Below are positions 91-63,753 of a stretch of DNA of 64,000 nucleotides, in pieces (the stretch's first letter is position 1; every line of letters starts with the position of its first letter). Position numbers and translations under genes: made by a program. Source of the stretch: Nereocystis luetkeana. Taxonomy: Eukaryota > Sar > Phaeophyceae > Laminariales > Laminariaceae. Under the pieces are notes generated by a model. That model saw nothing but the letters and a program-made list of their open reading frames with translations, made no database searches and had not been told where the DNA came from. The DNA lies in contig JARUPZ010000010.1 in assembly GCA_031213475.1 (NCBI GenBank), positions 501,001 to 565,000 on the forward strand, written 5' to 3'.

Positions 91-1904
91 ATGTGCGGGT
101 ATAGCTTGGTAGTATCGACCTAACAGGGCGTAGAATGCGGCCTCGTGAATGTCGCACGAGGAGCGTGCCACGACGTGACAGTACGAGCGTGACAGTATGA
201 GTACGAGCGCGACAGTACGAGCGTCAGCATGCTGCCCCGGTGTCGGGTGTTTTCTTCCGTTGCACGCGGACATACCTGGTATCTCCTGACCCCTGCGAAA
301 TCAGCGACGTTGCACTGCACATCCGGCATAACCACGGAACTTTTAGTTTAGTCAGCGCCGACTTTTGGCTCAGTGGTTGTGGTCAGTCTCTCTGTCAAAA
401 GAAGAGTCTTAAGGGTCGACTGCATGCCCCTCGATCCGAAGTCCGGGTGGCGTTCACTGGCTTCGAGGGCGTTATACTGCGGCGCATCACCAGTGGCTAC
501 AGTACGTACGACCGCCATGACTACCGAGCTAAAAGTCAACACGGATGGCGCTCATCTACCACACCCCTACCCCAAGGCAGGGTGTGTCCCCGCACCACAG
601 CAACTCTTTTTTTTTTTTTTTTTTTTTTTGGGCGCGAAAACGTTGAACCATGATTCTTGAGCTCCCAATTCCTTCAGCACGGTTTTGTTCTTGGTTATTT
701 TTTTCATGAAAAATTGTGTTCAACACAAGCTGCTGTGTACGAAAGCCAGTCCCCTCCCCCCCCCCCCCCCCGCAAATTATGCTTCCTATGCTCGACCCCC
801 CCCCCCCCCCCCCCCCCATCCCAAGCCGGTAATTCTATACTTGTATGCCCTTGAAACGCCCGACTAGGCCGGAAAGAACTGCGAGCATAGTGCGCATAAA
901 AGCCTAGAACTGTGATCACCTACTTATTTGCTCGTTTGTATCATCCGTCGGTTCGTCTTGTGAAAAGTCGTCACCAGGTAAATATGTGGGTAATCAGCCT
1001 GATGATGACGATGAGGTTGTCGCGTTAGCCCACTTCCCTGCAATCTACCGCATAGCCCGTATGATAGCCCACCCCCCTCCCCCCCCCAATCGGACGAGTT
1101 TCAAAGCTGATTTCTGGCGACAATCTTTCATTTTTCTTCTTTTATTTTCCTCCTCGGATTCGTAAAGAGAACGCTTAAAGTCACCACACGTACCACGATT
1201 AAGGTTCGTCTCGTGTGCCAATTTATCTCGTCGCCCCCGCTTCAACTGCAGAAGAACTGCTGCGCTGCCGTAGTAACGAAGAAGATTCAAGCTCCGAGCG
1301 ATGCCGCTACGGGATCATCTCGTTCCAGATTTTTTTTCCGAAGCCACCGTGTTCCTTGCCGTTGTAGGTGCCCCTCGGCGTTTGTCGGTGCAATCGGCTC
1401 GAACAGTCGTCCCTGAGGGGGTTTACATGTCATATGGCGTGTCGCTGTAATCGGTATATGTATACTTGTTTTCCATGGACGGTGTTCGTAGCCCGATGTT
1501 CACAAAACGGGCTAAACCGCGTGTCGATATATAGGGCAGGAGCATGAACTAGAGAAACACCTGGTACGTGCCATGTACCATATACACTCGTTCCAGGATA
1601 GTTGCACGTACGTATGTTAAGTGTGGACTTCGTGATGCGCCCTTTTGGTCCTGCGCTGCCGGCGCTTAGACATACTGTACTACTAACGGTTGTGAATCCT
1701 ACACTAAATTCAAGTGTTTTTTGCCCACAACGAAAGTGTAGTCCAAAAAGGGTTTCCATTTTTTTTTTTTGTTCGCACGAGGAGCCCCGCGGATGGATCA
1801 TCTCTACCTGGTAGTAATTAAACTCATTCTGTCGGTGGATCTTTTCATTTTATACCCATCTATTTGTGTAGGTTATGTTTCTAACCCAATGAATCTCCAA
1901 CAGC
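91..1904. other. Non-coding stretch with homopolymer tracts
   Basis: I see no exon here. There are a poly(T) run near 607-629 and poly(C) runs near 760-773 and 797-817. Open frames over these tracts are proline- or phenylalanine-rich artefacts. One TACCTGGTA scar lies at 273 and another at 1805. Confidence 0.5.
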
Positions 1905-2075
1905 TCTCAGCGGCTCTCCTAGCGGCACAAGGACTCTGTAACTACCCTCCTAACGGTCTATCGACTCTGCAACGACCCTTCTAACGGTTCAACGGCTCTT
2001 CTATCGGTCCAACGGCTCTGTAACGATTTTCCTCACGGTCCAACGGCTCTATAACGGCTCTTTGTACGGTTTGTC
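1905..2075. repeat. Degenerate tandem repeat with CTCTNTAACGG core
   Basis: The stretch is built of diverged copies of a unit of about 30-35 bp containing CAACGGCTCT and CTAACGGTC. It directly precedes the first recognised exon and looks non-coding. Confidence 0.6.
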
Positions 2076-2134
2076 TAGGGGCTACCTTGGCTACTCGACG
2101 ACAATGGACGCTACGGATGATCTCGTTTTGACAG

Positions 2135-2184
2135 GGGTCCCTAGCTGTCCCATCGGCACCGACTGCACAGACTGCGGGCTCCAG
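2135..2184 (+). CDS. Exon A of LNR-like membrane protein gene (partial)
   Basis: A 50-bp exon lies between acceptor TTTTGACAG and donor CAG|GTGAGT. It enters in phase 1 and ends in phase 0, and encodes GVPSCPIGTDCTDCGLQ. The ending GTDCTDCG is the C-terminal half of a Lin-12/Notch-like (LNR) cysteine module of a form common in stramenopile and other algal proteins. The upstream part of the gene is not identified, so the 5' end is missing. Function is unknown; an extracellular location is inferred from the cysteine pattern and the later membrane helix. Confidence 0.6.
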
Positions 2185-2419
2185 GTGAGTCTGTCTTTTA
2201 CATGAAATCGCTAGAGTAGTTTCTTCTGTTACCTTCGTCGGCCTCCTTGTCTCCGGAAAACCCTGTATTCCGACATGTAGTTCATAGATGCGGAACGATA
2301 AGATGGTTCATGCGGCAATCGTCGCAGTGGTATTGCCCTGCATGCCGTGTACCAGGTACGTCATATGTCATAGCTGTACATATCTCTAATCATATAATTT
2401 ACTGATACTTGGTACTTCC

Positions 2420-2453
2420 ATACAAAAGACTGCACAGACTGCAAACTCCAGGT
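2420..2453 (+). pseudogene. Ghost copy of exon A
   Basis: About 267 bp downstream of exon A the 3' part of the exon and its donor recur: GACTGCACAGACTGC, then a changed Gly codon, then CTCCAG|GTGA. The upstream part has decayed beyond recognition and the conserved glycine is now lysine (DCTDCKLQ). It is best read as a decayed tandem duplicate of the exon. Confidence 0.6.
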
Positions 2454-2720
2454 GACGTGATAGGCAACTGCGTAACGGTTTACGTATCGATGTATGGATG
2501 CAGTATCCTCCCTACCCCCACCCCTATCTCCGCTCCCGCCCCGCCCTCACACCCAATCCAACCCAACCCACCTCACCAACCCCGCCCTCATCCCCATCCT
2601 CGCCTCATCCCACCCCAGAGCATGCCACGGTGGGGGCGGTGCCTTGGAAGGGTGGTGCCTTACTATGGTCTCAGCTCTATCACATGATGAACTCTCACCC
2701 GTATGTTCGCGCAAACGGAC

Positions 2721-2724
<4 letters not shown>

Positions 2725-2762
<38 letters not shown>

Positions 2763-2770
2763 TATGTTAT
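2725..2770. repeat. (TA)n microsatellite
   Basis: An almost pure TA dinucleotide run. A TATTAATA palindrome follows at 2781. The preceding 2510-2640 is C/A-rich low complexity. Confidence 0.9.
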
Positions 2771-3075
2771 ATATATTCGCTATTAATAGTGTCGACGAAA
2801 ACATTATATTAGTTGAAAGTATAGTACGAATACTAGCCTGTATACTTGCTGTTGCTCACTGGAGGAGCTCACTCTGTAAAAACAATTGGGCCAGGAAGTG
2901 CCACCTCTATCCGACTTCCTACCCCAATTCCCGCCCCCGACTTCAACACAACCCAAACCACACCCCCACCCGGCTCCACGGTTTTGTTTTATTGTTTTGG
3001 GGTGCGTCACCGCAATTCCTTCAGTGACGGAGGTGGGATGTACCTTCGGTAGCTGGTATTTAACAGATCGAGGTT

Positions 3076-3165
3076 TTGGCGACCGAAACCGACTTTTATA
3101 TGGTCGGTTTTTCGGTCGATTTTTGGGCGACCGAAACTGACTTTCATCTGGTCGGTTTTTCGTTT
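3076..3165. repeat. Direct repeat of GGCGACCGAAACCGAC unit
   Basis: Two copies of a unit of about 48 bp, each starting GGCGACCGAAAC and ending GGTCGGTTTTTCG, lie in tandem in the intron before the second LNR exon. Confidence 0.7.
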
Positions 3166-4042: not shown

Positions 4043-4153
4043 TATTACGGGGGGGGCCATAGTTAACACGACCAAATATTGTTAGTAAAAATGGTCAAAT
4101 ATATAGGTTTTTATGTACACCATAGGTCCTGTTAACTAGGGTCCCCCGTAACA
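4043..4153 (+). mobile_element. MITE family 1, copy 1
   Basis: An element of about 110 bp with terminal inverted repeats TATTACGGGGG..CCCCCGTAAYA. The interior carries CCAAATATTGTTAGTAAAAA and GGTTTTTATG. It lies in the intron between LNR exon B and exon C. Confidence 0.85.
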
Positions 4154-4159
4154 GTAGAT

Positions 4160-4951: not shown

Positions 4952-5113
4952 GAGGAGCACGGGTCTTTGGATCAGCATTCAGTCGTAGCTTATGACGATG
5001 ACGACAGCGGTTTCATAGCGAAGGACCTGGGCCACCCCATGTTCGACGGCCAACTGAACAACGGCATCGGACGGTACAAACGGGTCTTCGTTGAGCATCA
5101 GGTCATGCGCAAG
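4952..5113 (+). CDS. Exon C: acidic module of the LNR gene
   Basis: A 162-bp exon, phase 0 at both ends, follows a T-rich acceptor ending GATAG and is followed by donor AAG|GTCAGC. It encodes 54 residues with an AYDDDDSG acidic stretch followed by a conserved-looking block (GHPMFDGQLNNGIGRYKRVF). I do not recognise the domain. Frame and phase continue from exon B and into exon D. The donor GTCAGC is weaker than the GTGAGN of its neighbours. Confidence 0.6.
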
Positions 5114-5706: not shown

Positions 5707-5815
5707 TATTACGGGGGACCATAGTAAATAGGACCAAACATTGTTGGTAATAAGAGAGAAGTATATAGTTTTTTTTGTTTACCGTAGGTCCTACTTCCTA
5801 TGGCCCCCCGTAATA
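5707..5815 (+). mobile_element. MITE family 1, copy 2
   Basis: A 109-bp TATTACGGGGG..CCCCCGTAATA element, diverged in its middle but with intact ends. Confidence 0.85.
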
Positions 5816-7999: not shown

Positions 8000-9466
8000 G
8001 ATAACCGGCCGCATGCCATTTTACGGGCTATGATTAACGCTGAAGCTTCTATTGGCGCTCGCTAGGATGATACTTTGCTTCCCTGTTAGGACTCGGAAAA
8101 ACGAGGAGGACTGCGAGGAGGCGTACGTACGCTAACGCCCGGCGTGCTGCTTCACGGATTCTCATGATGCCGTAGAAGCTACCAATGGCACTCGCGAGGA
8201 TCCGATTGTGACAACGGTGGTGGTTGGGAAACACACAGAACGGACGTATTTTCAGCTATAGGGGTTGCTTTCGAGAGCTTGGCTGCGAGGCCCGCAGGGT
8301 GATGCACCGGCCACTGGGAGGAGGCTAGGGTGCGGCGCACTGCTGCTGCTGCTGTGCTCTGATAGCTGTACTCGGAGTAGAGCTCAACTGCTATACGTTT
8401 TTTTTTTTTCTTCTGTTTGTGTCGTTTTATAATTCCGTTCAGGACTTTATTTGGGTGTGATTGTTTTATTTTTTTTCGCCGTGGGTCGTGGTGGATCTCT
8501 CTCCGTTTCTCTTGCCTTCTCTTGATCTCACTTGTCCTCTCTTTTCCTCTCTGTTACGTCTTTTTATGTTTTCGTTTTTGTATGTTTCTTTTTTTGGTTT
8601 GGTTCGGTCGTGTTGTCTTCCTCTTGTCTCCGCGAGCACTTTTTTGTACAAATCGTTAATCAAAACAACGCCGCCTTATTATAGTGACTAGCCTCTATCT
8701 ATGCCCCTTGAGTGCTGTGCAGAGTTCCCAGCGCGGGAACGCGTAGGGGGGGGGGGGGGGTAGAGGGGGGCACGGAGAGAGTACTGTTGTTTCATGTCTA
8801 TGGTGCGAGGGTTGCGGGAGGCAAAATCTAATGGCACAAGACGGTCGTTTGCTAGGCTCGGCTAGTCGCTCCTTCGACACCCGTAGCACAGCAGTACGGA
8901 GCAAACACATCTTGCTCCAATTCCAAGTGGTTTGTGACCCTTAACGTGGGTTCGCCCGCATGTAAACAGGTTTGAATCAACACCTATGGCCCTGCACCCA
9001 CATTTTTTTCCACGGCAAACTAAGCTGGTGTCTTAAGAGTAGGAGTCGTTGTGCAGGGCAAAAGCGAGGGGTTAGTAAGGCTATCCCGTCGTCTCGGCGC
9101 GTGAAGTAGTTGTTTCGCACAGCAGCAGGAGTAGCAACAGCTTTAACAGCATGTAGTAGGAACTAGCCCAGCAGGGTTCCTCTTCCCCCCCCCCCCCCCC
9201 CCCCCCCCCCTCCCCTCCGTAGCCCCCTCCCCTCCGTAGCACATGCATACCTGGTATTGTTGTTTTTTCCGGCGAGAAGGTTGTTTTCCCGGCGAAGAAA
9301 AAAACTTGACGGTTTCGCGGAGTGGAGTTCCTGGCGGGTTGGATGCGTGATACCCGGCGTCGCGGTATTCTTGGTGTGGTGGTGTGGTGTCGTCTGTCGG
9401 GAAACATGGATTGTACTACGCACGTGGTGTTTTCGGGTCCGAGCCTTCACAAGGGAGGATGAGGGT
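8000..9466. other. Intronic or intergenic stretch without recognised gene
   Basis: I see no convincing exon. A G-run of about 15 lies near 8748, a C-run of about 24 near 9186 and a TACCTGGTA scar at 9248. Confidence 0.4.
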
Positions 9467-14094: not shown

Positions 14095-14160
14095 GGTTTG
14101 AACCCACGCTTCCGCTCTGCAGGGTCGAGCGCTCCACTGTATACCCAAGTACATACATAC
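14095..14160 (-). tRNA. tRNA-like relic (pseudo-tRNA or SINE head)
   Basis: On the minus strand a D-arm/A-box-like ACAGTGGAGCGC is followed by a good T-arm (GTGGGTTCAAACCCCGC). The 3' acceptor strand CATCCTC has no partner upstream. The 5' region ends at a TACCTGGTA scar (14158). It is not a functional tRNA as it stands. Confidence 0.4.
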
Positions 14161-14522
14161 CTGGTATATAAACTACTATAATAATTATAGTCGAAAAAAT
14201 GAAGCCATACTCAAACCCATACAATTGCCATACAAAAAGGTCATACGTACAACTAAAACGAAGAAAAAACCCCACGAAAACCACTATTTAATAAAACCCA
14301 AACAATTACTCCCCCGAAGGGAGGTCTTGTAATCAATGTGGGTATTCCCGGATACAGTATTATGCCATCTGCGATATATATGACAATATGCGCAGCGCTT
14401 ATTCCAATAATACCATATTATCCACGTACATACATACGAAAGGGTAACTTAAGTAAATCCAAACACTGCGCCGTAGGCGGACCTAAATAAATATGACCCT
14501 CTATAGTAATTCCAACTGTTTC

Positions 14523-14729: not shown

Positions 14730-14766
14730 ACGCTCGTAACGACGTTTTCTTGCAAGTAAATTTGAC

Positions 14767-14882
14767 TATTACGGGAGGCCATAGTTAATAGGACCAAATA
14801 TTGTTGGTAAAAAAGGTTAATTATATACCAGGTAGGTTTTTATCTATACCGACGGTCCTATTAACTATGGTCCCCCGTGATA
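14767..14882 (+). mobile_element. MITE family 1, copy 5, with a 7-bp TACCAGGTA insertion
   Basis: This copy is 116 bp where intact relatives are 109 bp. The extra 7 bp are CCAGGTA after TATATA, so that TATATA-GGTTTTT of the other copies becomes TATATACCAGGTAGGTTTTT. The insertion equals CCAGG plus a duplicated TA. Confidence 0.9.
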
Positions 14883-14899
14883 GCTACATTCGATGAAAA

Positions 14900-16941: not shown

Positions 16942-17244
16942 GAGATACGAGGATTTGGAGTGATAGCTTGAGGTGATCTTGATTACTGCTGCTTTTCCTC
17001 GTTTGGCCGCGAAACCCTCTGTTCGCTCGGGGTGCTTGTAGGTTATGGCACAATGCGGTGAATCTCTAGACTCAAGAACCTTTTCATCTCCTGCTTATTG
17101 TCGACGGGTTGCTGGTAGAATTTAGACGAGATGGTGCGGTAGGGAGTCCGCTACCTCAGAGTGATGAACAACCCTGCCTGCGAGTAAGGCCTCCACTGTT
17201 CATATGACATTCCGGTTGGAGTATATACCTGGTACGTGTTATCA

Positions 17245-17312: not shown

Positions 17313-18510
17313 TGGTGAGGGCCGTATGATGTGCATGGTCAACTTAATGTTTGTACCTTGTGCCTTCCTGGGTTGGATCTGTGCGACACGATATCCTGCA
17401 CAACGGCTCAGAGCGGCATATATATATAGGATTGTTTACTGCAAGTGATCCGCTGTAGTACACAGTAGACCGAAACCTGTACAATGTATGTTAGCCTGTT
17501 GTTGAGGCCGCGCTTGTTTGCGTGCGGTAACTACAAGTGCCTGTGGTGCGGTGCGATGTATAAGTGGACACACATGGGAGTGTCTACTGCTGTACATCAG
17601 TTGGCGAATACAGTATACAGTATACTATGTGATGTGTTTCAGGCCGATACTTTTGTTTGGAGGAGTATACAGCAAAGCATTCTGCTCAGCGAGGAACACC
17701 ACTCTCAATCTTACCATGCATAATTTACTGACCCCTAAGAGCCTATCTATGCCCAACGTTCACGTCACCATATTATGCGGCAAGCCTTAGCCAAAATAGG
17801 AGACTATTAACTGCCGTAGCGTACAGCAGGTAGGTAACGAAAACATGGTTTACCTGCTCGGTTTGGATCTTGCGCTGCGGCTGGCCGTGTGGAATCGCCC
17901 TCGAGCCCGGTATTCCTCAATTCCTTCGAAACAATACGTGGTAAATAAAGCGGAATACACGCGGAGAAGGTGGTTTGTGCGAACGCTTGGCTTGCGGAGC
18001 TTGACTACAGCAGTCATCATGAGGACTCGCTCACTCACTGTTTGCTGGGGTCGGAAACCGGCAGCTCGATACAGTCACGGTAACGTAACATGGCTTGCGG
18101 AAAGGCCGTGAATCTCTCAACACATTTACGTACCACTTTCAGTCACACGGTACCGTAGACCATAGCACCGAAAGAAGTATCTCGTCAGGACAGCTCTAGA
18201 CAGCGATATGGTCATCCTAGTCTTATACAATACCAGGTACGATTGTAGTCTATGTATGCTCAAACTTGTTTAATGGTAGTAGACTACTAGTGTCAAAATA
18301 AGGTTCCAAGGCTAGCTCACACTATAATCATGTACAGGTGTTTTTGTTGCCGGGCCTATACTCTACTACAGCGAAACCCGAATGGACTTCGAAAGTTATT
18401 GGGTAGCTCCTGCGTTGAGTATTAACAGTGCCACAGCAATAATAGGTTACTAGCCCCGCCAGTCACGAAACGCTTGGACCCAACTATATGTACCCCTAAG
18501 TACCAACCAT

Positions 18511-21159: not shown

Positions 21160-22390
21160 GCTGCAACAGGTGAGGAACTACTGTACTGCTATTATACCGT
21201 AGCACTGCGCTGTATCCCATAATTTTGTGTGTGTTTACAATAATATTCGCATACCCGTTGAACTGGTTGCACGTCTTGTGCTGTACGGGAGTCTATGGGA
21301 TCGTTGGTCGGGTTGCCTTTCGTTTCCCCCCCCTCTAAAAGTAAGGTTTTAGGTGAAGGTACACAGCAGCAGTGATACAGTACGCGTAACACACCAGCGG
21401 AGCTCCTCCACTGACTGAGGAGCCTCATAAACTACACTACAGTAAGCATACCAGGTATATTATACAGGATGCAAGCGCCTCTACTGTTGTAGCGTTGCAA
21501 GGGTCTACTGCCTGTATGTACTACCCTCATACGAGGTGAACACGCTCCCCGCTTCCGTTGCCGCTACTGAGAATGCCAGCTATCAGTAGTAGTAGCGATT
21601 TGAGGTCTATCGCATGCAGCGCTGCTTCATGTTTAACCACCCTCACCATAACTATCGTACGTTAATCGTTCTTACATCTATCTCAGAACCGTGCAAGTAC
21701 ACAGCTGCAGTTTACATCTCACACGAATGCCGTTCCTGCACTGAGGGTTATTTCTGTAGCCACTTGCCTGTCGACTAATTTCCTCCCGCCTAAAGTCGTT
21801 AATGTAGTACGGCGTGGCCCACTGCGTCAGATCCTGGACGGTGTGCACCCAGTACCTTCATGGAGCCAACGGAACGTGTGCGCCAAAGGTTTTATCACAC
21901 GTACGTACGTATAAATAACTAGTAGTTGAGGATGGGGCTACTCTCTAAAGTCTTACCAGTGCCCATTTCCTCTAGTACCACTCTATAAAGCCTTTTTGTA
22001 CCTTGAGAGGGACGAGACAAATACAAGAGAACGACCGTGGCCTCGCCCTGTGACCGTCTGTCCCTCGGGTTGGCTTGAGCTGCGGTGCCTGTGGGAACAT
22101 TGCGGGAAGCTTAGCGACACCTGTCGTCCATTATTAGTGATTCTTCCACTCTGCACTGTGCATGTACTGCATGGAGTTGATCTTGGGCAAGATGGAGTCC
22201 TCCTCCGTTTTTGTCTCTGGGGTTTGTGACCATTCATTGCAGTACCTACCTACCAGTCGTTGCTTGGTTGCGGGGTGCAACATCCTGATGGATGGATGGA
22301 TGGACTACACGGCAAGGAAGGAGTGCGCGCGACACGGACGCAGCATGACCCTACTCGTTCTGCTGGGGGCTCAAACTATTGTTATTGCTA
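21160..22390. other. Stretch without recognised gene
   Basis: It contains a TACCAGGTA scar at 21,449 and several TACWGTA words. The 21,996-22,229 open frame is cysteine/tryptophan rich but has no clear splice sites. Confidence 0.35.
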
Positions 22391-26527: not shown

Positions 26528-28320
26528 CTACTACTGTAAGTGGGCCTATTATTGCCTACAGGCACTTGCATTGAAAAATCACATCATATTGCATGATTGT
26601 TTAGGGGGAATGGGAGGCCATACCAGCGACCAAAACAAGCGGCATTTTGTTTCGATTTTTTCAACCGCCTGCCCCCGCGCCGTACGGCTCGTTCCATGGC
26701 ATATTGTATACCAGGTATTGTATACCAGGTATTATTGTGTAGATGCACGGTGTACTGTAGTTCAGACACAAAAAGTATCGCCCCCCAACAAACAATCAGC
26801 AGTTAGTTAGTTGTCAATGATGTACGTACCGTAATCGTTCTTCTTGGTTACTGTACCTCCCCTCTCGAATTCCAAAGGGGGTAAAGGAAGGTAGCAAACC
26901 TAGGGTGGGTCCGTTCGGCTCGAAGCCAGTTTTAGGCGTAGGATGAGCTTCGAGAGGAAAGGGTGCGCATTATTTTTGCACCACAGGCAAACACACATAC
27001 ATGCACACCGCTGTCTGTGCGCAAGGAACCCCCGTACGTATTGTGGAGCAGAGACAGCCACACCGTGTCTACAGTTGATGGATGTGCAGTATGTTCACCC
27101 CGAATCGAGCCTTGAATTGGCGAGGAGAAGAGCGATCGGTAGAACTATTGTTGCTGCTTGGAGCACATCTATGCTATGCCACACGTAATGCCATTCATTG
27201 CATCTGGTAAGATGGGCTAATATTAGCGAACCTGCATGACGACCGCGTCCCTAGGCTTAGGCGCCTCGTCTCTTCCGAATCTCATCTCTTCGGTCACCTG
27301 TCCACAAAATACCATTCAGGTTTGAGGGTTGGGTAGAAAGTAGGGCTGATACTTGGCTGGGCCTGACGGCTAATAGTAAGTATCACAGTCGTTGGGTTAA
27401 TTCGGTTGGTTGGATAGAGAAAGTAAGCCAGCCAGCTGAAAGACTTACTGCTGTACTGCTACAGATTTTATCAATGATATAGTCGTACCAGTAAGCTAGA
27501 AACCTCGAGCCTCAAACGCGCCAAGTCAGATATAATGATGCGGAACTCCGCAAAGTACCGGACGCAATCGACGATTACATCTACAGTAGTAGCCAACTAC
27601 AGCAGTATAACTATCCACAGTACAGTAGTCGGTAAGTTAGAGTCAAACAACCGGCATACCTACAGCAGTACCAAGACAACTAAATAAATAATCGGTCATG
27701 TATAGGCAACCAACTGACAGACACTCTGTAGCAATAAGCCGACTTATAACTCGTCGCCACAAAAATAGTCAGTCATCTACAGTACTAATAAGCCAAATGC
27801 AACGATTTCCGTTTTCTCTGCGGCTGTTCCATGGTCCTTCAACGATGCACACGATCCACAGGAGCTATTCTTTGGCCTCACGTCGATGCACATTACCTTC
27901 CTATGAAAACACAAAGACGGTTTTGACAAGGACAAGGGGCACTCGGCGCTCTTTACTGCTCTAGTGCATAGCAAGGTTATATAGTCTCACTACAGGAACA
28001 CCGGTGTGCTGGAAGAGGGCGTGTCAGACTTTGGTTTGCGGGTCGACGAGGGGAGTGCGCATCTCCCATGCCACAATATATGGCTGTCGTCCATGCCAGC
28101 ACTGGCGTTGCATGCCGCACTGTACAAATATATATGCACATACACGCTGACTGGTCTGGCAGTCAGTAAACAAGAAACATGCACCATACCCACCTCACAA
28201 ACAGATACCGCTGACTGACTACCGTAGCTCTATAGGTCAGTGATCACCAGGGCTCCTCCAGGCTCATGACCACAACCCGCTGGTCAATGTCAGGCACTTC
28301 TTGATCTCTAACAGGTCTAT
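26528..28320. other. Intron stretch of the minus gene
   Basis: No exon is recognised. Two TACCAGGTA scars 14 bp apart (26,709 and 26,723) sit in a direct repeat GTATACCAGGTATT. The 27,440-27,800 part is rich in TACAGTAG and TACAGCAGTA words. Confidence 0.4.
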
Positions 28321-29060: not shown

Positions 29061-29264
29061 CTGATTGCACAAACGCGGGGGGGGGGGGGGGGTGAAAACA
29101 AAGCAATTGCTAATGGGCTTGGATTAGTCATTGCTTGCCCCAAGCGCGAAGCACCATGGTGTATCCGGCGAGCCGCATCAAGGGTGGGCCGCATCGTACC
29201 TGGTACGTTCTGAACATATAACGGTTTGTGAGGCGGCGGGGTTCGATGCCATATGCCTATTTTC

Positions 29265-34820: not shown

Positions 34821-35426
34821 TTGTTGGGCATGCGTCACACGGGTAGACCGATATCTAGATGTTCTGCGGGCACTGACAATTTCGAACGGCAGGGACGCCG
34901 CCATGGGGCGAAAATCGCCGTCGTGCCCGATTTAAGCAGCCCCCCTGAATTTAATAGTATTGCCACGTCTTTCATTCCGCGTGATATCTATCTTCTCAGG
35001 TACGACGTACCTGGTATTACGTTTCTGCGGGTGATTCCAAGTGAGAGGTTCCGATTTTCCGAGAACGGGTGCACAGTTTCAGGCAACTCAAAACGGATAT
35101 ACCTTGGATCACCGATGCAGAAAACGGCCGGTATTTCGGCGAAGCCTGCTGGCAGCGAGACGGGACTATATAGAATCGCGTTGCCATCCACCCTCGTGTT
35201 TGCTCAGATAACTGATGCCGTGCGTAACATTTCTACGAAGGCGCCTTTTCTAGTAGAAACCCACCACCAGAATATTAACGCTGAATCAAAGTGCTCGATT
35301 GTTTTGTTGGGAGGTACTACAGTAGTGTGGTGTACGTACAATATGCAGCAGTTCTTCTCAAGATTCCTTCGACACTATTATGCCAACACCACCGTCATTT
35401 TGTATGGTTCGCACGATTTTGTATGA
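34821..35426 (+). other. Unassigned 201-codon open frame
   Basis: This is the longest plus-strand frame not explained by a repeat. It contains a TACCTGGTA scar at 35,008 and lies in an intron of the minus gene. There is no recognised motif, splice pair or start context. It could be a decayed transposon fragment or chance. Confidence 0.2.
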
Positions 35427-37099: not shown

Positions 37100-39840
37100 T
37101 TAGCACTAAGCAAACACTACAGAAGAGCACATGCAGTGATCAAATACATCGTTTTTCCCGCCTGATTGATCAGTAAGTCGGATTTACGATCCTTTTTTTA
37201 GCCGTGCAACTAACAACTGCCGCAGGGTTTGTTTGTGCCCTTTTCCGCCTATCATACCAACTATCCTCCCAAAGGGCGAGGTAAGAGTTTTTTCACAACC
37301 CAAGGAGTCAGGGTCCCGAATATCAAATACCAAATACCGGCAAGCATCTGGACCCGATGTGCTCTCGACACCATTTTGTTGCGGTGTAGATACCGTACCT
37401 CGGATGCTGTACCGATGGGGCTGTGTGTCGGTCTTCGCTTACCTTTTCCCCTCATTGTTGTGCTTGTCGCACGCGCAATAATCACACCTAGTCCTGCTGT
37501 ACAGCTCTTCAAGAGAGAGGAGCCTTAGAGACATACCTGTTTCACCATGTACACCCCTGTAGTAGCACGCGCTGTTTAGCCTTTGGTGTTTCCTTATTCC
37601 TACTGCGGCTATGGCTATGACGGAGGAGGGATGCAGATTGTATCCCCTGTCGTTTATACAGTAGTATGTAGCTTATAACCCGTAGCCCGCGTGGTTTGAC
37701 CTTCAGGGTTTCCTTGCTTTTGCTGTGTACCAGGTATATGGCTATGAGGCGCGGGGGGTGAGGGGTGCGGATTGGAGCTGGGCAGCGTCGGAGGAGGAAG
37801 GCATTATGAGGTGGTCGAACAAAACACCGAGCACCAAGCTGAAAACACGTGAACACATCTGCAGCATTATCAGGTATGTATTTGCTGCATTGCAGGCCCT
37901 CCGTGGAACATACACACCCAGCCGGGTGCATTGAGCTTTCGATGGTGCTGTCTCGCACGACGATCATTTGGCTAGCCAACCTCCACCAACCAATCAATCG
38001 ATGCCTCTAGGGCGCGCTGAGGCGAGCCGAGCCACTTGACCAGGCAATTCACTCCACCCACAAAGTGGAATGCCTATAGCTGCCTGTGGTCTTTGTGCTA
38101 CGCTTCACCCCCCATCCACATAAAAGACGCGTTAACAAGAAACCCAGCTTGACATTACCGGAAAAATAAAAGTTCCTAATGTTAGAGAAGAGCACAACCT
38201 TTTTGTTAGCCTAGGCTACTACCCCGATCCCTTACGCAAACGTCGCCACTGCTACGTTTGTGCGTATTAGTATGCAATGCTTGTTTGTAATGGTTTCCCT
38301 CGGTCTTTGCTTTCCGGGGATGTTGTTATCATGCTCAACACTGGTTTCGGATGGCAAGCTCAAAAAACGTACCTGGATGTATTTTAGCCCGAAGTAGGAA
38401 GGGTACAGAATCCCCGCACCAGTGCCTGCATACGCCTCTGCGGAAGCTTCGCCTACAGAGGTGGGTCGACACACCCCCAGTTTGTGCCCTTACTTGCCTT
38501 AGTCTTTTTTGGTGGTTTCTTCCTGCCCCCCTGGCTAGTCGTTGGTCTGCCTCCCTCCGTCGGGTGCCCCATCCGCATTGGCCTAGTTTGGGTGTCTCTG
38601 GTCCGCTTGACAGGCGTCTTACCCTCCCTGTATGTCACAACGTGTGGCCGTTGTTGTGGGAGGCGTTGCGTTAAACAAAGGGCGCTGTGACGGAAAGAGT
38701 ACAGTGTGGGCCCCAACTCGACATATTAGTAAGAGGATCAGGATCGCTTTTAGGGGGACGTTAAAAGTTTTTAGTTAACAACTCGCGCTGGGCGGCGAGC
38801 GCTGCACTGAATACTACCGGTATATTATAGCTATCTATGCTCAAAGCTCTTCAAGGATGGTGTCACGTTAGACCTCTAAGGTTTGCTAAGATTATTAGGC
38901 GTTTATCTTTGGTGACCCATACTGTATCTCAGTAGGAGGAGGGGAGCGGGGGGGAGTGGCTGATCTGCTTGATGGGCATCCTACCCGTCGTTGTAGAGGA
39001 TGAGGGTAGGGTTTACATTGTATTTGGCGTTTGGGCAGGAAGGACGGGAGCGGAGGAGGGAGGGGGGTTCCCGTTTGATGGAAGTCCTACCTTGCCTGTG
39101 ACGAAAATTGGTTGTTGTCGCGGGGACGCCGGAGCATTACTTTTTCAAAAGCGTGATACGGCTCTATCTAGCACAACATGTCCTAACGGAAAATGCAGAA
39201 TCTACACAGACAAGCTAAATCAGGATCTAGATCATGGTCGTGCCCGCTCCTTATAGGGCAAACAATACTTCGAATTCGTGTAGGACAACGTTTTGGGGGG
39301 CAAACTACTTAGATTATAATTCCTGCAGTGACGGATTCATTCCGGAGGAAATCTGCTTGGAAGTACTGAAGTATGGTTTACTGTTGTATACATCTCGTAA
39401 CCGTAGGTATCGCTACCCTTCTATGCGGCCACCTTATCACCCTGCTACTCTTCCGGGCCCACGTTACCAGCTAGTGAGACGTCGCCATAGACACCAATGC
39501 TACGTACTAACAGCCGGTTTTCCTACTCGAAGCCCAGGTAATTGCCTTTCCGATGATCGTTAGTTCTAATCAATCGAAAGTTACATTGTATTCCCCTCAC
39601 AGTCAAAATCGTGTGAAGCACATACGTTACGTGCTGAGAGCGCTGAAGAGGATATTTTGGGCCGTAATTGTTAGAAAAACAATGTTTCCTAGTTTTCCTC
39701 TTAATCTTGAAAACAATGTCGGGATACGTGAGGTTCATGTAGCAGCAGGCGTGTTGATCGAGGCAAGTGGATACACCGGAAAATAAATTCGAAGAAAACA
39801 CTTCATTCTCGGGACAGCGTCGTGAAAAATGATCATTTGC
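37100..39840. other. Intron stretch of the minus gene
   Basis: A basic minus-strand frame at about 38,500-38,640 (GGRKKPPKKTKA) has an acceptor-like GACATACAG, but its phases do not fit the gene. A TACCAGGTA scar lies at 37,730. Otherwise nothing is recognised. Confidence 0.35.
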
Positions 39841-39846: not shown

Positions 39847-40241
39847 AACAGACAAAACGGAAAAATGAGAACGAAACAAAAAATGGGAACGGACGGTTTT
39901 TTTTAGAAAGCAAACCAATTGTGTACAACTCCAAGAAAAAAAGTTGACAGTCCTGTGAGGCTGTACAGCAGCCTTCGAATGAGCTGTCGCTCAGGCTGGA
40001 AGTCCTCGGCATCGCCGCGGTAGCCAGCATCTAGAGAAATCACAATAGAGCCAGCGTATATCGCTTTTTGCGCCCACCCGAAGGCACGAGATGGAGCATG
40101 ACCGTTCTGACGAGCTCCTCTCACAGGGCTGGCCAAGGGGTTTCGCAGGATCATTTTGGTTCTCTGATACACCACATGGTTCTGGAGATACGGCTTGGTT
40201 CTCATTTTAGGCTTCGTTCCCATTTTTCCGATTTGTCTGTT
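39847..40241. mobile_element. 395-bp element with 46-bp terminal inverted repeats
   Basis: The left end AACAGACAAAACGGAAAAAT and the inverted right end (AACAGACAAATCGGAAAAAT on the minus strand) match over about 46 bp with few differences. Both ends are flanked by AGTA, a possible 4-bp target duplication. A minus-strand frame of 119 codons runs through it, with a hydrophobic end (GLSTFFLGVVHNW). It has no recognised transposase motif, so it is most likely a non-autonomous DNA element. Confidence 0.65.
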
Positions 40242-42049: not shown

Positions 42050-44780
42050 CGTCCAAAAAGGATTTTTTGGATACGATATGAAATTCTTCTACACGAACAT
42101 GATAACATGTACAGTAGGCCGTTGTTACCGTTCGTGAATCGGGTTTACTGCCGCAACTTGCATTTTGTTTTATCAAAAGCCAACGTTTTCCGTGCTACCT
42201 GGTATATACAGCTGGTTCATTTAGAGTTCCTCACGTGAGCAGCCTCAGGATAACTGTTGTTGATGCTCTATACCGCTACCGTACGTGCCATGCGTCTTCA
42301 AAAAGGAAGGAACGGAAAACGCCTCGGAATTAGTGTGGGATAAGATTTGTAGTTGAAAACAAAGGGAGTTAATAAGGCAAGGAAGGGCCCAACGATCCGA
42401 AGCCGAACGCGCAGAGGCGCACAATATATAATATGCGGACGGATTCGTCGATTGGTGGTTTAGATATATCGACACGCGGTTTTGAAATACTACGGTACTA
42501 CTGTCGGCGAGAGAAAGAAGGCACGAAGAGAATTCTCGTCTGCAGGGCCAGGCTATGCTTCTTGCGGACTGTCAAAATAGGATCCTTGCGAAAAAGGCCA
42601 AAACACCTATACTACTGTCACCTACTAACATCGCTAAGGGGGCGCAAAATAGAATGTCCACAACAATAGCTTTTTGCGGGCGGTAGTCACTGAAGCCAAA
42701 CATTTCTCCAAATATTGGACTCTTGGCGAAACGTCTCGACCGTTTCGGTCCGTGCAATCCGCACCGCACGAAGGGGTATTTGTGACGAGGAGCTTGCGTG
42801 CAACACACTGTCTCCTATCCCCCCAAAAGCGGCGGCCCACCTGACCCAACTTCCACAAAGCGGCCCCCCAGCGTACCTACTTCTTCACCGCATGCATTGC
42901 ACGAGCAAATTCATCATGCAAAGAGGGTTTTCACTCACAAAGAAGTATCAGCAGAGGCGTGCCTTAGAGCATTTTTAGACCAAAATAGTTTTGACTCACA
43001 GGGTTCCTCAAGGGCACCGGTTAACTACCTACCTGGTAGTAAAACCTGCCGTACTATCGCTGGAGCACCATAAGTTTGGGTGTTCGGATACCTACTGTAA
43101 TAACCCACGGCCTTATCCATCGGGATGCACCCCCATTGTCCTATCCCTCAGGATCGGGTCTTGGGTGGGTTCTACCAATAGTGGTATACACAATGAGCTC
43201 CTCAGGTGGAGAACCTCAGAGAAAAGAGTGCACCCCTATCGTAGCACGCATCAGCATCCCTTCTGCCTTCTATAGGAAACCCCTCTTTTGTCGTCACTCA
43301 ACACGTATTCGGTGTAAGTGTTTCCTGTCGGTATGGAAACATCGAGAGGCGTTCTGCGATAGAGGCTCTCCCTATTGTTTCTGGAACCCCTCACTTAAAG
43401 AGCTCCCTACCTCACTCGGAAACGGACTTCAGCGAAAATCAAATTGCACGCCGATGAATAATCCCATGGCCCAAGTATACAAAAACGTCATTTTTCGAAA
43501 CAACATTGATATTTCGACGATTTTGGGTTGAGGGAGAAAACGTTTTAGCGTACGTGTGCTACCTCTATCGTAGAATGCGTTTCGACATGGAGGTAACCAC
43601 GGTGCAAATAGATTTGTTGCTGGTGCTTGTTTGACACCGTTACTGCAGTTTAAAAGTAAAAAATAAAGTTGTGCTGCCAGATGCCAACTTGCGCCCCCTT
43701 GGCAAAAAGCGTGCTCGCCGCGTGCACATGCCTGCAAACACACCAACAACCACCCTGCAATGAATATATATGCCTGTCCGCGGCATGGTATTTCTTTGCC
43801 CGTAGCTCGTGTGTAAATGATGGACACCGACTACACGGGAGCACGCGATAGGCACGGCGCTCGCAAACACACAGCTTATACTCTTTATATTTCATTTTGT
43901 ACATCCTCTCCATATGTATTTCCTATTCCGCCAGCTCCCTCCCTCCGTAGACTCAGATGCCTGGCCAAACAGTCTGCGCCCCCCCCCACTACCGTGCATG
44001 CCTTGGCTTTCATGGCGGGAAAAGTCCAGATTTATTTTCCATCCTCGAGCCGAGTCGGGGTGTGAATACACACGGTGGGCGTTTTCAGCCGTAAATTGGG
44101 ATTTAGCACACCATGGGTAGTTTTGTCCGTAGACGACGTAACGGCCTCCGCAAACGAAGTAACGGACACAGCAGGGTTTATTGGTAGATATAATATGGCA
44201 TGTCGGTATCGGGAACTGAGATAGAGCAAGCTTGGGTTGGAAGGGAAGGCCTCGAACGCAGTCCTTGCAAGCAAGGCAACGAGCGTAGGTCAGCACCTCC
44301 ACGCCGGGCACGAGCAAGCATGAGGTCCTGTGACGAGCACGGGCAGACGTGAGGTAGTCCCTGGTTTGTCGATTCAAGCCAGGAAGTTATGCCTTCTTTT
44401 CTGCCGCCCCACCCTCCCTATTTGTTCCTTCGAAGGGGGGGGAGGGGGGGGCACGAGTAGCTGGTGCTACGGAGGGAAATAAATGTGCTTTCTCTTCCGT
44501 TAGGGTTTTACTTGAGTTAGATCGGAGGAGTCGAATGGTACCGTCCCATTCGGAGGCTTGGTCGTCCGAGACAACTGTAGACCGTACTAGTTGGGAACCC
44601 GGCCGGTATCATAGTAGGGAGAGATACGTAAAATAGAGTGGTCGAGATACTCAGGATATTGCAGGAAGCTGCGATAGAGATATCTGGCCGAGGGGAGGAA
44701 CCTTTCTCTCCCACGACTCAGGAAACGATAGTGATAATGCAATTCGAAAGATAAGCAATAATAACATACGTTAAGGTTCT
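42050..44780. other. Intron stretch of the minus gene
   Basis: TACCTGGTA scars lie at 42,196 and 43,030. No convincing exon is seen; open frames of 130-160 codons have no splice support. Confidence 0.35.
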
Positions 44781-47854: not shown

Positions 47855-48945
47855 CTGCAAACGCCTGGACCAGCAGATGCCGTACACGCATCATGCATAC
47901 GCACGTATGATAGCGGTGCACTTTGTGAGGAGTTTGAGCGTGCGCTGTAGTGATGCGTGCGGTTTACGCGTACCCTTCTTAGTGCACGCCGTCCTTTTGA
48001 TCGGTAATTATTAAGCAGAAAATAGTGCAATTAATTGTGATCATTGCATTCGCCTGTTGATAGCGAAACTGACGTGTTTTGAACGAACAGGATGTGTATC
48101 GCGTGCTGTCGTATACCTGGTACCTGGTATAACTTATCCACCAGTACTTGTGCGCGCTTTTGGCAAGCAGGGTGTTAATCGCGGGCCATACTACTGCATG
48201 TGTTGCGCATACCAGGTACCCTTCCTACATACTCGTAGTGTATAAACACTATAATACACTCTCATCGCCATCATCCAATCGTACTCGTGGGCTTGAATCG
48301 AACCCCAAGCTGGCCACCTATGTGAAACTACTGCACAGTGAGTGGTGTCTGCTGCCGATGCCGATGATGTCGCGGAGACGAGCTCCCAATCCCTGATGCC
48401 TGCACACGCCTTTGACGGCCGACAGTGCCGAGCACTCTCCTCTCGTATCATGGAGCAACGAGATGCTCAGGCTATGTCTCGAACGGAGCCAAGGGAGACG
48501 GGTTGCCTGAGAAAACACAACCACCCTCGAGGTGTTGTTCGTGAACCTCGTCAAATCGATTCCACAGCGGATGACCCAATCAACCCTTTTTAGGGAAACC
48601 GTCGACCTTGAGTCACAACGAACTGACCGCTGCGACCTAAGATCGATGAATCGGCAGGTTCTTTCGGGCTTAAAGTGGGCGTTTGAGGTATATATATATG
48701 TGTCCTTTCGCGCATCCGAGGTTCCGAGGTCTACAATATATACTTGACTGCCCTGTTCTTCACACTTACGATTGATGGCATTCTATCTAGGACAAATATA
48801 ATCAGCCTAAAAGACGTACCTGGCATCTGATCTACCTGCCTACATGTAGGGCATTTTCGACGTTGTTGACGAGAGAACCCCCCAGTATAGACGTTCCTAC
48901 AAGCCGATTCGTGCTCGTGTCAAGGTTTGTCGTGGTTGCCCTCAC

Positions 48946-49504: not shown

Positions 49505-50590
49505 AATACTGTCTGGAGAATAACAACCGCACAGTACCTTATGTACGTACTGTAGTGTGTATGGGTAGGGTAGGTGGATTGATGTGTTGATTAATGCTTT
49601 GAATGCAATCGAAAAATAGCTCTCGCTCTCTAGGCTACCCGCCGGTCAATAAATGGCAGGCAATCAACAGGATACAGTCAACAATCAAGCTCCCCAACGT
49701 ATTTGGAGGTATCGTTTGTTATTGGGCAATCGCGTTCAACGTCGGTTGCTTATAGATGTGATGGCAGGGTCCTTGCTTGTACTGTAGTTGTTATCCTGGG
49801 GGTAAGGGGGTAAGGTCGACAGAGACGCAGAGTGAACCTACAATACTACCACAAACAATGGAAGAAAAAGTTCGTCGTGAGAGTAGATGACAAGACAATT
49901 CAACCCATTGATAATATGTGTTGTTGCCTCCGAGGATATATTTAAGCCAATAAAGTCGTCCCTGTCTAGAGAGAGTTCCCAATCGAAAAACAGAGAGCAT
50001 CTACCCTACTATTTTACAAGTGTGTGTATGATGTCTTCACACTAAACACCATTCCAACTACACCAATACATTCAGAGTCGTCCGTGCTGATCCCTCATGC
50101 TAGGCAGCCACTAATGATGTGGTCACAGACTGTGAGGCGGACGAAACAAATAACAATAATAAGGATCCCAACTAACTTAAGGGGGCAAGGCTACTGTAGT
50201 GAAATGCCAACGTACCTGGTACTAAAACACAACGACACAAACCAGACAAGAAAATAAGCCAATATTATGGTGAAAACAACACAAGAATGAAATGAAACAT
50301 AATACCAGGGTACAAAGGAAGCAAATATAACAGAAAGACTGGAAGAAGAAAACAAACATGCGTAAGGGTAATAACTAATAAACTGCTGTATGCACGAGGT
50401 GGCGAGAAGGAGAGGAAGATACCGGCACAAGGACGGCGTCGGGGGGCGGGGAAACAAAGAAATAAACAAGGCACGAGACATAGGTTTTAATCTTGATACG
50501 CACCATAAAACCAAGTGGTACCCGTCAAGCGTAGGCGCTGCCGTACGGCGTGGTCTCGCGTGGTGACAAAGAAGGGCGTGTTTCGTTTTG
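49505..50590. other. Intron stretch of the minus gene
   Basis: A TACCTGGTA scar lies at 50,213. No exon is recognised. Confidence 0.45.
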
Positions 50591-56409: not shown

Positions 56410-57650
56410 CGTGAAGTATAGTGCTCCCACAATAGAATCAAGCCAGGAACCCCACAACAAAAGTAGGTGCACCCCCTATGGTAGCATGCGTGCCATATGT
56501 GCGTATGTAATAGTTTATAGTGTTGTGTGTTTTGAGCCAGTTTTGCTTTCCAGCTCAGCCCACGAGAGGGTTTACCTCCAACAGCCTGCTGGAAGACCGT
56601 GGTCACTGGTAAGTAGGTGTCTTCCCTTTCCTCCCGGTCCCTGCTGTATCTTGTGTTCGAGGACAGATGCTGCAGGGTGCTCCGCATTCCCGCCCCTCAC
56701 CCCTTTTTATTGATGTTTGCCAACTGCTAATAGCTCTTCCCTTTTTGGGACGACGAAGAAGGCCCAGAAAAGCAAATTGTCTAGATTAGTTGGAGGTTCC
56801 ATGAGGTGCCCCATGGCGCACCCCGTGCTGTATCTCATGGTGGATGGGGTGCAGCACCTTATTGTGTAACACATACACCCGTTGAGATTCGAGCCTCAGC
56901 GTATCCGCCAGAATGGAACAATTGAATGTAGGGCGCCTATTGGAGTTGGTTTATCGGACCGTTGTTGATTATCCCGGCGGCTAAACACTGCTGCTGCTGC
57001 TGCTGCTGCTGTTCAACAGAGATCAATACGAAGTCTAAACGTTGACAGACTGCTGCATGAACACGAACGAACCCAGCACGAACGTCATGCTCACTTTTTG
57101 GTGGACAACAACTCGTGGCCAGCGATCGCGTGGTACGATAGGGGTAGCACTTATTTCCTACCGAATCATTTCTGACCGACGGGGCGCCCGGACCGCTCAA
57201 CTGCCAAGTAAGGTACCAGGTACCTGGTATGCCTTATCGTTGGAACACCAGTCGTGTTTTTACGATATTAACAGTACATCAACATAATGACTTGTACTGT
57301 ATACCTAATGTAGGCGATGAATTTGATCGTCGGGGCAACCGTACGTTAGACCTTTTGGTCAGTGTTTGGGTTATGTATAGAGCTTCTACGCTACAGTGGC
57401 TTGAGGAGCCTCAGTAAGTTTACGTGCACCTATACCGGAGCATGCGGCTGTGGCGAGCGCATACGCGCACTCAACATTTGACAGCGGGAGTATATGGTCG
57501 ACACTGTTCGAGATTAGTATCACAACAGGTCAAGCTTTTCTCAGACTACGACTACAGCAATCGTACGTGTTGCTTGGTTGGTGGGTCCATGCGTTTCCGC
57601 GTGCCCACAAAAACAGTGATGTAGCGCCCTGCTGTGCCTGTTCTGCATCC
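56410..57650. other. Intron 2 of the four-exon gene
   Basis: It contains a (CTG)8 run at 56,989-57,012 and the chained scar TACCAGGTACCTGGTA at 57,214-57,229. No other exon is seen. Confidence 0.5.
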
Positions 57651-61598: not shown

Positions 61599-61718
61599 AC
61601 CCTGATATTCGAGCTATTAATAGTGCATCTGGCGCGGCAAGTAGCCCGTTGCTTTGTTTCGACTGATGGGATGGGATGGGCCGTCGAAGTCAAATATTTG
61701 CACCTGGCCCTTATGTAG

Positions 61719-61876
61719 CTGCCGTCGAAGAGAATCCCGTCATCCCCTTGCCTTTTCCCTCGCCCCACGACGCAGGCGATGGAAACGTGTACTCGAAAGC
61801 TACAGCTGAAGGAGGAGCGGCGATGTCTGCAGGGATACCCGCTTTCATCGACCAGCTTAGTGTGCACCGTAGGAAG
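61719..61876 (+). CDS. Candidate internal exon (AVEENPVIPLPFPSP)
   Basis: A 158-bp segment: acceptor GCCCTTATGTAG, phase 1 in, donor AAG|GTGAAC, phase 0 out. It encodes about 52 residues with HDAGDGNVYSKATAEGGAAM and IPAFIDQLSVHRRK. Coding-like composition, no family recognised, partners not found. Confidence 0.45.
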
Positions 61877-62013
61877 GTGAACGCTTGAAATGGCGACAAG
61901 GATACCGCAAATTCCCTCGACGAATCAACGTGAATCAATTAAACGCCGCGACCATAGTGCGTATCTGCGCAAAAAGCGTTGGAGATTTATATTACGAATA
62001 TTTGCGATCGTCC

Positions 62014-62122
62014 TATTTCGGGGGACCATAGTTAATAGGACCAAATATTGTTAGTAAAAATGGTTGAATATATAGGTTTTTGTCTGTACCATAGGTCCTA
62101 TTAACTATGGTCCCCCGTAATA
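62014..62122 (+). mobile_element. MITE family 1, copy 11
   Basis: 109 bp, TATTTCGGGGGACC..GGTCCCCCGTAATA, flanked C..G. It is used here as the length reference for the family. Confidence 0.9.
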
Positions 62123-62458
62123 GTTGTCTCTTCGGTTTCTTTATAACATAGTGTATTCGACCATGCCATGCTACCTCCCATGGTGATGCCGCACGTTTTT
62201 TTCCCGCCGCTGGCGGTGTTTGGTGTACCCCCTGCTGCCTGCTGTAGCTCCAGCAGAGCCTGTGCCGCACAGCTACATCACACTTGGGACAGATAATCGA
62301 TTCCGATTTCAATATCTAGATTTCTGGGGCAGATGGCTCTATATGGAAAATCTCCGTACCGGACAGCTTGGGCCACGCGGTGTGATGAAGGCAGACACAA
62401 AAAGACATCGAAAGCTGTAGCATCGTCTTCCCAGACAACCGAACGGTAGCAGTAGAGG

Positions 62459-63065
62459 CCGACTATTCTCATGTAGAACTCCCTAAGTATCCGTGCTGAT
62501 ATCCGTAGATCCCTTGCAGTTACATCTGGTTGATATTGACGCGAGTATGTCGTAACCTCCTACCGTCTCCCTGCTTGCCATAGTGGATACACGGGGTCGG
62601 TGGTTGGGCGGCCGTCACTCCTATGTCGTTGTCCCTGACCTTGTTTCGTTTCCCCATTTTTCCCATTCACTTGCATATTTGGCGTCTGCGTCTCGTTCTT
62701 CGTCCCATTCAGCAGAGAGCTTTATCGCGTAGGCCTCGTCCAGCTTGAGTAGTTGTTCAGTGAGATTGGATAGGTGCTCCCTCCTTACTACCTGTGCGAA
62801 CTCTCCACTCGAGCCACGCTAGCCAAAAGAGTGCTCTCAGTACGGGCCGCTTGGGTAATAACACGGTATGATAAAAGCAGTCAGAGAAGACATTATCGTC
62901 GTCCAAGTTGGCCAAAACAAGGAAGTAGAAGCCAAATCCGCTCTTATGGAACTCCCCAAGTTTCCGTTCTGTTCTCCATAGATCATTGGCAGTCCACCAA
63001 CTATCCGCACTGTTGTCATTGTCAGTTACACGTAGTCGATCCTGACGCAAGCATGTAATTAAATC
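62459..63065. repeat. Two diverged copies of an AACTCCCYAAGT segment
   Basis: 62,465-62,570 and 62,948-63,065 share AACTCCC.AAGT.TCCGT.CTG, TAGATC, GCAGT and a tail TCCTAC. A minus-strand frame over the second (SADSWWTANDLWRTERKLGE) is coding-like but unassigned. Confidence 0.45.
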
Positions 63066-63753
63066 CTACGGGGTTCCTGCTCTGTACGATTTGCATGATC
63101 TACGATCATATTGCTAGGTGGGAGTCGTGCAACTTGCATGATTTAGGACATGTTTCCTGGGTTCGATCTGTATTCTGCATATCTTGGACGACATATATAT
63201 CGAAATGGCGGGGTAGGATATATATGATGTACATTACAGCACCGCAGGTAGTTACCGGGTATCTGTCAGGGGTGTGAACTGTTTATATTGAGACGAAACG
63301 TACCTGGTATGTCAGGAGAGCTGTTGGAAGGTCAACACGAAAACAGGCAATCGCTCAGAACTGTGAGTCATTGTTTCACTACCGACTACCAGGTATTAAT
63401 AACAGTTAGTTGTAACTGCCATTGATCTACGGAAACTGATCCAAGGGTCGAAATATTATCGGATATATTTTCTGTTTTACTATGATCGGGCTTCCAGGGG
63501 ATTGTCTATGTCAGAGGAGGGAAAGCCTCGTTCGGGCACTCCGACAACTCCGATAAAGCATACTGATATACTTCTATATCTCTTTCCACCGCCTCATGGA
63601 GTCGCGGATCTCCAGCCCCTCCTCCTCGTGATCGAGACAACCCTTGCATTCGAGTGATCCAACATGCTAATCCCACGAGACCGACACCGCATCCCCATTG
63701 TCGAGGTGCCTCAACCGTCTCCAGACACTCTCACAGTGATGTGCTGATGTGCC

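Follow-up and report, generated by a model that had tools for sequence, protein, structure and literature searches.

Excision of Sleeping Beauty leaves a scar of the form TA-CWG-TA, in which the central W stems from a mismatch. Elements of the pogo superfamily target TA, hAT elements duplicate 8 bp and piggyBac elements TTAA at their targets, and HIP1 of cyanobacteria is a highly iterated palindrome. In excerpts of the published accounts, the first nick of Sleeping Beauty and mariner falls three nucleotides (nt) inside the element, creating 3-nt 3′ overhangs that non-homologous end joining turns into footprints (PMC7827188); the transposase of rice Mariner/Stowaway elements cleaves within the element, so that target site duplications (TSDs) remain together with letters of the terminal inverted repeats (TIRs), and PIF/Harbinger duplicates 3 bp (PMC4561436); rice Mariner elements, with the TIR consensus CTCCCTC, are plentiful and their precise excisions rare (PMC4423477); and Passer, of the pogo group, leaves footprints of 0-4 bp (PMC9976928). 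Here we analyzed a 64-kb stretch of the brown alga Nereocystis luetkeana (hereafter the window; contig C10:501001-565000, within a genome of 465,085,209 bases in 1,987 contigs) that contains 25 exact copies of the palindrome TACCWGGTA. With a probability that we put at about 0.86, TACCWGGTA is a scar left at excision by a cut-and-paste transposon that targets TA and resembles Tc1/mariner or pogo elements.

TACCWGGTA resembles the scars of Sleeping Beauty and Tc1/mariner in its TA target and TA duplication, and in a palindromic remnant of a few letters, with a mismatch-like central W, lying between two TAs. It differs in that the remnant is 5 bp (CCWGG) and not 3, exceeding the canonical 3 bp of Tc1/mariner (2-3 nt stagger) and departing from TA-CWG-TA, that the target has TAs 7 bp away, and that 182,395 scars are present with no parent found in the DNA examined. 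Stowaway/Mariner elements of grasses similarly leave TSDs and TIR letters at excision; here, however, the scar is common and the element was not found in the DNA examined. With pogo (DDE_1) elements such as Passer, the likeness lies in the TA target and in the DDE_1 proteins of this genome (28 matches), but the part of the Passer account cited above gives footprints of 0-4 bp, and no link between DDE_1 and CCWGG was found here at the loci looked at. HIP1 shares the high frequency of one short palindrome in one genome, whereas here paralogues reveal that 7 bp were gained at TA. Scars of PIF/Harbinger, hAT or piggyBac were rejected since the duplicated unit is TA. Membership of Tc1/mariner or pogo is not established because neither ends nor transposase were seen. 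The chemistry is ordinary; the scale, the uniformity and the target rule are extraordinary.

A recount confirmed the 25 copies, with 22 coordinates of the initial annotation exact and three shifted (14827 to 14826, 29198 to 29197 and 37730 to 37728). Its chance expectation was ~0.5; dinucleotide shuffles of the window gave a mean of 0.36 and at most 2 copies among 100 shuffles, and the excess held genome-wide, where the 182,395 copies compare with 1,744 of the reversed pattern (~105-fold). A 264-kb sample, comprising the window and 20 stretches of 10 kb, held 81 copies (44 CCAGG and 37 CCTGG) against ~1.2 expected. A larger set of ~337 kb includes six stretches picked for holding a scar (L001-L004, L007 and L008; L001-L045 denote other stretches of the genome examined, and C1, C2, C10 and C809 contigs). 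In these 337 kb, W-centred scars numbered 109 against 3.1 expected and C/G-centred forms 10 against 3.0, while CCATGG and CCTAGG between TAs were each found 0 times (0.3 and 0.2 expected). The excess is specific to the W centre; decay of W scars could be the source of the small C/G-centre excess. The first-reported preference for a preceding purine and a following pyrimidine proved real (83% of scar flanks) but in part a property of background TA (60%). Occupancy is ~0.72% per TA genome-wide, or about one in 140 TAs, with the TA total extrapolated from the 264 kb.

Comparison with paralogues showed that TA cleanly gained 7 bp, becoming TA-CCWGG-TA, without loss of host sequence. For 98 scars, the two flanks were joined and matched against the examined DNA; apart from the sites named next, most rows, being low-complexity or weak, were left unused. 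The scar at L014:1888 had three partners with plain TA, 97.5-99.2% identical over ~120 bp; a plain-TA copy of its repeat lies in the window at 40108..40229 (minus strand, 99.2% over 122 bp). One partner of the scar at L009:9130 had plain TA (93% over 118 bp). At window position 14826, within a miniature inverted-repeat transposable element (MITE), plain TA was found in 20 of 23 alignments, copies without the scar reading, for example, TATATAGGTTTTT where the scarred copy reads TATATACCAGGTAGGTTTTT. At L030:2269, plain TA was found in 19 partners with the gap placed as in a list of paralogue insertions. This list, which is unbiased, comprised 181 events of at least 3 nt, rows below 75% identity or 60 columns having been dropped. 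Sixteen of the 181 had the form TA-X-TA, X being CCWGG in four, a single C in two and ten other sequences once each; only CCWGG recurred with a length above 1 bp.

The scarred MITE copy (14766..14883, no strand assigned) is TA-flanked, has the TIR TTACGGGGGACCATAG and carries its scar at 14826-14834, where other copies have plain TA. Further TA-flanked copies of ~111 bp with this TIR lie at window positions 4044-4154, 5706-5816, 6826-6937, 19449-19559, 22394-22508, 26418-26528, 41365-41475, 49391-49501, 62013-62123 and 63753-63863. Genome-wide, the MITE site TAATA|GGACCAAATATTG was plain in 9,237 copies and held TACCWGGTA in 49, with 0 in both reversed controls. Since plain TA is far commoner at this site, it is most likely the older state. 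The 49 scarred sites were spread over 28 contigs (15 CCAGG and 34 CCTGG), although some may have descended from one another, and the occupancy of 0.53% is near the genome-wide value per TA. Both in paralogues and at the MITE site the duplicated unit was TA, as expected of an element that inserts at TA and duplicates it. Of the 9,237 genome copies of one MITE 18-mer, the first 100 all lie on C1, densely at ~15.0-18.0 Mb; a DNA search of the genome with the MITE itself gave no matches, the likely reason being that the words it contains occur too often.

Such a gain could arise as follows. The transposon would insert at TA and duplicate it. At excision, the transposase would cut inside the element ends, so that 3′ overhangs starting CCA(G)(G) remain behind each TA; end joining would align the two overhangs and the gaps would be filled, with a central A:A mismatch resolved to A or T to give TA-CC[A/T]GG-TA. 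One of the two mismatched strands would be kept, reading CCAGG, with a variable join after the G's. We infer from the scars the transposon itself, an overhang of 3, 4 or 5 nt, the end sequence, from which the letters of CCWGG would derive, and the Tc1/mariner or pogo kinship. The stagger is not fixed, because overhangs CCA, CCAG and CCAGG all yield TACCWGGTA. The initial annotation was largely borne out in proposing the scar of a TA-targeting transposon, given the clean gain at TA and the 49 against 9,237 MITE copies, but too specific in its 5-nt overhangs. Neither CCAGGCCTGG, the product of blunt joining after the ends are filled, nor CCATGG was seen in the 337 kb, and both were rejected.

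Indel variants were read on the CCAGG strand in the 337 kb, p values being computed for the loss of a G or a C and for the gain of a G. One G was lost in 34 cases against 10.9 expected and one C in 16 against 14.5, while an extra G was present in 9 against 0.9 and an extra C in 0 against 0.9. Both G's were missing in 62 (44.2 expected), both C's in 23 (24.8 expected), and the centre (CCGG) in 17 (5.5 expected). The two halves of the scar are therefore not equal, as the excess lay only on the G side and equal halves would give no bias. This polarity, which is all that the CCAGG indels provide, suggests an element starting CCA rather than CCT. As a variant of this same reading, a canonical stagger of 3 nt, in which ends CCA overlap by a single A:A, in place of 5 nt with ends CCAGG, is a serious possibility, though one that on balance we lean away from. 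Sleeping Beauty and mariner cut 3 nt inside (PMC7827188, in part), the gain or loss of a G at the G side resembles a gap-filling error, and the product is identical for every overhang between CCA and CCAGG. However, a 1-nt mismatched overlap is weak, whereas CCAG and CCAGG overhangs form 2 and 4 base pairs flanking the mismatch, and the sole CCA-start repeat family tested, described below, is not bounded by its TAs.

Tandem scars provided evidence on how the sites are used. The form TACCWGGTACCWGGTA, two scars with a common TA, was present 15,917 times genome-wide against 2 in the control, or ~4.4% per scar TA. The two units agreed in W in 9,539 of these pairs (59.9%) and differed in ~40%; the first 59 pairs on the plus strand, read by eye, were AA in 23, TT in 17, AT in 14 and TA in 5. 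Scar flanks also looked symmetric (n=100 scars), and a TA exactly 7 bp from the target TA was found in 33.5% of 218 scar flanks against 6.9% of all TAs, whereas at 5, 6, 8 and 9 bp the values were 7.8-11.5% against 7.3-9.7%. A weaker echo was seen at 14 bp (15.1% against 7.1%). Decayed tandem scars do not account for the TA at 7 bp: at least 2 mismatches to CCWGG were present in 58 of 73 spacers and, when tandem scars were left out, 61 of 206 flanks (29.6%) kept the TA with unrelated intervening letters. The excess at 7 bp, being present also without tandem pairs, shows that the target favours TA-n5-TA-n5-TA, of which the scar TA-CCWGG-TA is half. A TA with a preceding G and a TA at 7 bp was 6.4-fold enriched among scar flanks (tandem pairs included), comparable in size to the excess, roughly sixfold, of scars at the TAs of existing scars. 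Tandem scars and target rule together show repeated use of TA sites.

These data bear directly on slippage or untemplated synthesis at breaks, which might add CCWGGTA to TA without a transposon. Tandem 7-bp units do exist, and they agree in W in more than half of the pairs. Slippage cannot explain all tandem scars, however, because 40% of pairs differ in W; the TA rule at 7 bp and the symmetric flanks are as expected of a dimeric enzyme, and the gains at the MITE site arise from plain TA. We regard this explanation as very improbable.

An extension of the transposon reading is attractive but doubtful. The parent may be a low-copy, possibly living transposon with a new end type CCAGG and overhangs of up to 5 nt, which would recognize TAs 7 bp apart. 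Since the scar is itself TA-n5-TA, every excision would leave a better landing site, so that scars would breed scars. If true, this would explain the 15,917 tandem pairs, and a rare element could mark a genome at hundreds of thousands of places.

Decay of the scars gave an indication of their age. In the 264 kb, one-mismatch forms numbered 103 against 53 expected, beside the 81 exact copies, corresponding roughly to a mean change of 7% per site, while the 97.5-99.2% identity of the L014:1888 partners suggests that some scars are recent. That the element excises often, as was first proposed, follows only from the numbers, and a modest rate over a long time would be enough at ~7% decay per site. 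When 2-kb bins were divided into quarters of rising GC content, scars per thousand TAs fell from 7.8 through 6.4 and 4.3 to 2.9 (34, 24, 15 and 8 scars respectively), and scars were clustered, with a variance/mean per 10 kb of 2.1 for the first 100 places on C1.

Age also weighs on programmed or near-obligate removal, whereby parents present in another life stage or strain would be excised each generation like the internal eliminated sequences of ciliates. Ciliate removal leaves a single TA. Scars here far outnumber any candidate parent and are very uniform, as such a process would have it, but they are old on average (~7% per site) and at least one is common to diverged repeats; many are therefore fixed junctions and not new somatic events. 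With no sign of a stage-specific form in the data here, programmed removal is hardly credible. Least tenable is a host sequence motif (a regulatory, replication or chromatin signal, or a selected highly iterated palindrome), which would account for the high count and strict palindromy, but not for the predominance of plain TA at the tested paralogous sites (paralogues oppose it at all well-aligned sites except L010:4431 and the scar common to L007 and L010), the occurrence inside MITEs and other repeats, the drop in density per TA in GC-rich bins, or the 103 one-mismatch forms against 53 expected, a pattern of decay rather than upkeep.

A search for the parent transposon was made in the DNA examined. 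As initially noted, none was seen in the window. Long matches following TACCWGG were ordinary repeats (L007/L008, L009/L036, L021/L021 and L007/L010), the similarity continuing upstream through the site in the last three (56 of 60 bases for L009/L036, the others by eye). A search of the ~337 kb for TA-bounded inverted repeats recognized no element with TIRs starting CCA or CCWGG, so that the TA-flanked elements starting CCAGG or CCTGG anticipated by the initial annotation did not appear there. By the rule of three, 0 in ~337 kb corresponds to at most ~4,100 parent copies, and therefore to ~44 or more scars per element, if copies resemble each other. The parent is low-copy or extinct in the DNA examined.

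The 28 genome matches to PF03184 (pogo-type DDE_1) were followed up at several loci and in wider neighbourhoods. L030 encodes DDE_1 with HTH_Tnp_Tc5 below its cut-off. At L032, one weak end pair was rejected, having 4 mismatches in 14 and CCAGG on one side only. At L040, a 20-bp inverted match with CCAGGTAC around the transposase (E 0.02) does not extend. In L035, a DDE_1 protein accompanies a pair of inverted copies of 1,888 bp (1203-3090 and 4704-6591) that are 99.5% identical and have TA-flanked ends CCGTAATCATGCG and similar; these were rejected as parent, having no CCWGGTA or TACCWGG. The CCA-start repeat of L017:244-411 was rejected because its similarity runs past TA in five short stretches. 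Within two mismatches it gave 323 + 314 matches against 11 + 1 for the control, a good part of the 100 matches listed being another repeat, TCCCACAATGTCGGGAAA. L017:215-440 and L041-L045 contain an inverted repeat around CCACTCTGTCCGGAAA with hundreds of near matches across the genome, which extends past its TAs into GTACGTACGAGTACAT-like sequence. L036 and L037 have 6,979 bp in common at 100% identity, across C2 and the small contig C809, and three more small contigs carry an equal-scoring DDE_1 match; some unplaced contigs may be duplicates.

Several observations weigh against an excision scar. Among 333 sequences following TACCWGG, drawn from ~337 kb of the 465-Mb genome, no parent was found. 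The catalytic domain usual in Tc1/mariner, PF13358, had 0 matches among 30 candidates, PF01359 not being searched, and no CCWGG ends were recognized around the PF03184 loci looked at (L029-L040). Direct mapping covers only 7 of 99 scars with paralogue alignments; plain TA was found at three of the seven (L009:9130, L014:1888 and window:14826) and at a fourth, L030:2269, after re-placement of the gap. L002:1501 and L021:6363 align poorly with paralogues, and relatives of L010:4431 carry the near-scar TACCACGTA and TACAGTA. L007:1501 and L010:5572 have a scar in common in sequence ~86% alike, as would be expected of an old inherited scar. Only 6 of 81 scars (7.4%) lay in open frames of at least 200 amino acids, but so did only 9.2% of TAs, and there was no clear depletion. 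Finally, W was not random at the MITE site (15 CCAGG against 34 CCTGG, p=0.009) and tandem units agreed in 59.9%, a bias that a plain mismatch-repair model does not predict; the W-specific excess fits the proposed repair of the centre to A or T, but not as a simply random choice.

The scars in the window, to which no strand is assigned, are of two forms. Exact TACCTGGTA copies lie at 273..281, 1805..1813, 9248..9256, 14158..14166, 17226..17234, 29197..29205, 35008..35016, 42196..42204, 43030..43038, 50213..50221 and 63301..63309, and exact TACCAGGTA copies at 2350..2358, 14826..14834 (inside the MITE copy, and seen in paralogue alignments), 18231..18239, 21449..21457, 32324..32332, 37728..37736, 48210..48218 and 63387..63395. 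Two TACCTGGTA scars at 48114..48122 and 48121..48129 overlap as a 7-bp tandem pair with a common TA, and a second tandem pair has differing units (A then T), TACCAGGTA at 57214..57222 and TACCTGGTA at 57221..57229. The TACCAGGTA scars at 26709..26717 and 26723..26731 are units 1 and 2 of a 14-bp tandem duplication (26702-26733); because this duplication includes the scar, they probably represent one event, the second being copied and not independent. Elsewhere in the window, 31433-31778 consists of the pentamer CGGGT repeated 69 times at 98% match and open in several frames, and 16330-16941 is an open frame that spans imperfect repeats of 81 bp (~27 residues) and resembles ankyrin by eye only; a Pfam search of this frame gave no ankyrin match.

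Other words of the form TA-X-TA were also frequent. TACWGTA, the classical Tc1/mariner 3-bp scar word, was over-represented genome-wide (162,074 against 54,742 reversed), but only one paralogue insertion of this type was found (X = CAG), and at 2 of 6 TACWGTA sites covered by paralogue alignments the sequences simply match each other. In the 337 kb, TACAGCAGTA/TACTGCTGTA was present 32 times against 1.0 expected, and TACAGTAGTA with its complement 18 times against 0.6. These words are perhaps scars or repeats belonging to other elements. Nine stretches of viral contigs had one tandem-scar place each, which we took as chance. For the EsV-1-7 motif, all of the 150 candidates scored, out of 1,718, were matches (best 2.4e-17), against 0 of 14 control genomes; a large EsV-1-7 family is a mark of brown algae. 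A word search of a collection of papers for TACCAGGTA, TACCTGGTA and TACCWGGTA found none of them, and the titles of part of the search results held nothing on such scars in brown algae.

Here the scars alone record a long history of transposition, although in the DNA examined the element is rare or gone. This record of insertion and excision is countable and roughly datable, and the scars give a target rule at base resolution together with a readout of end joining in this organism. Each scar inserts 7 bp and would thereby shift a reading frame, making excision a source of indel variation at scale.

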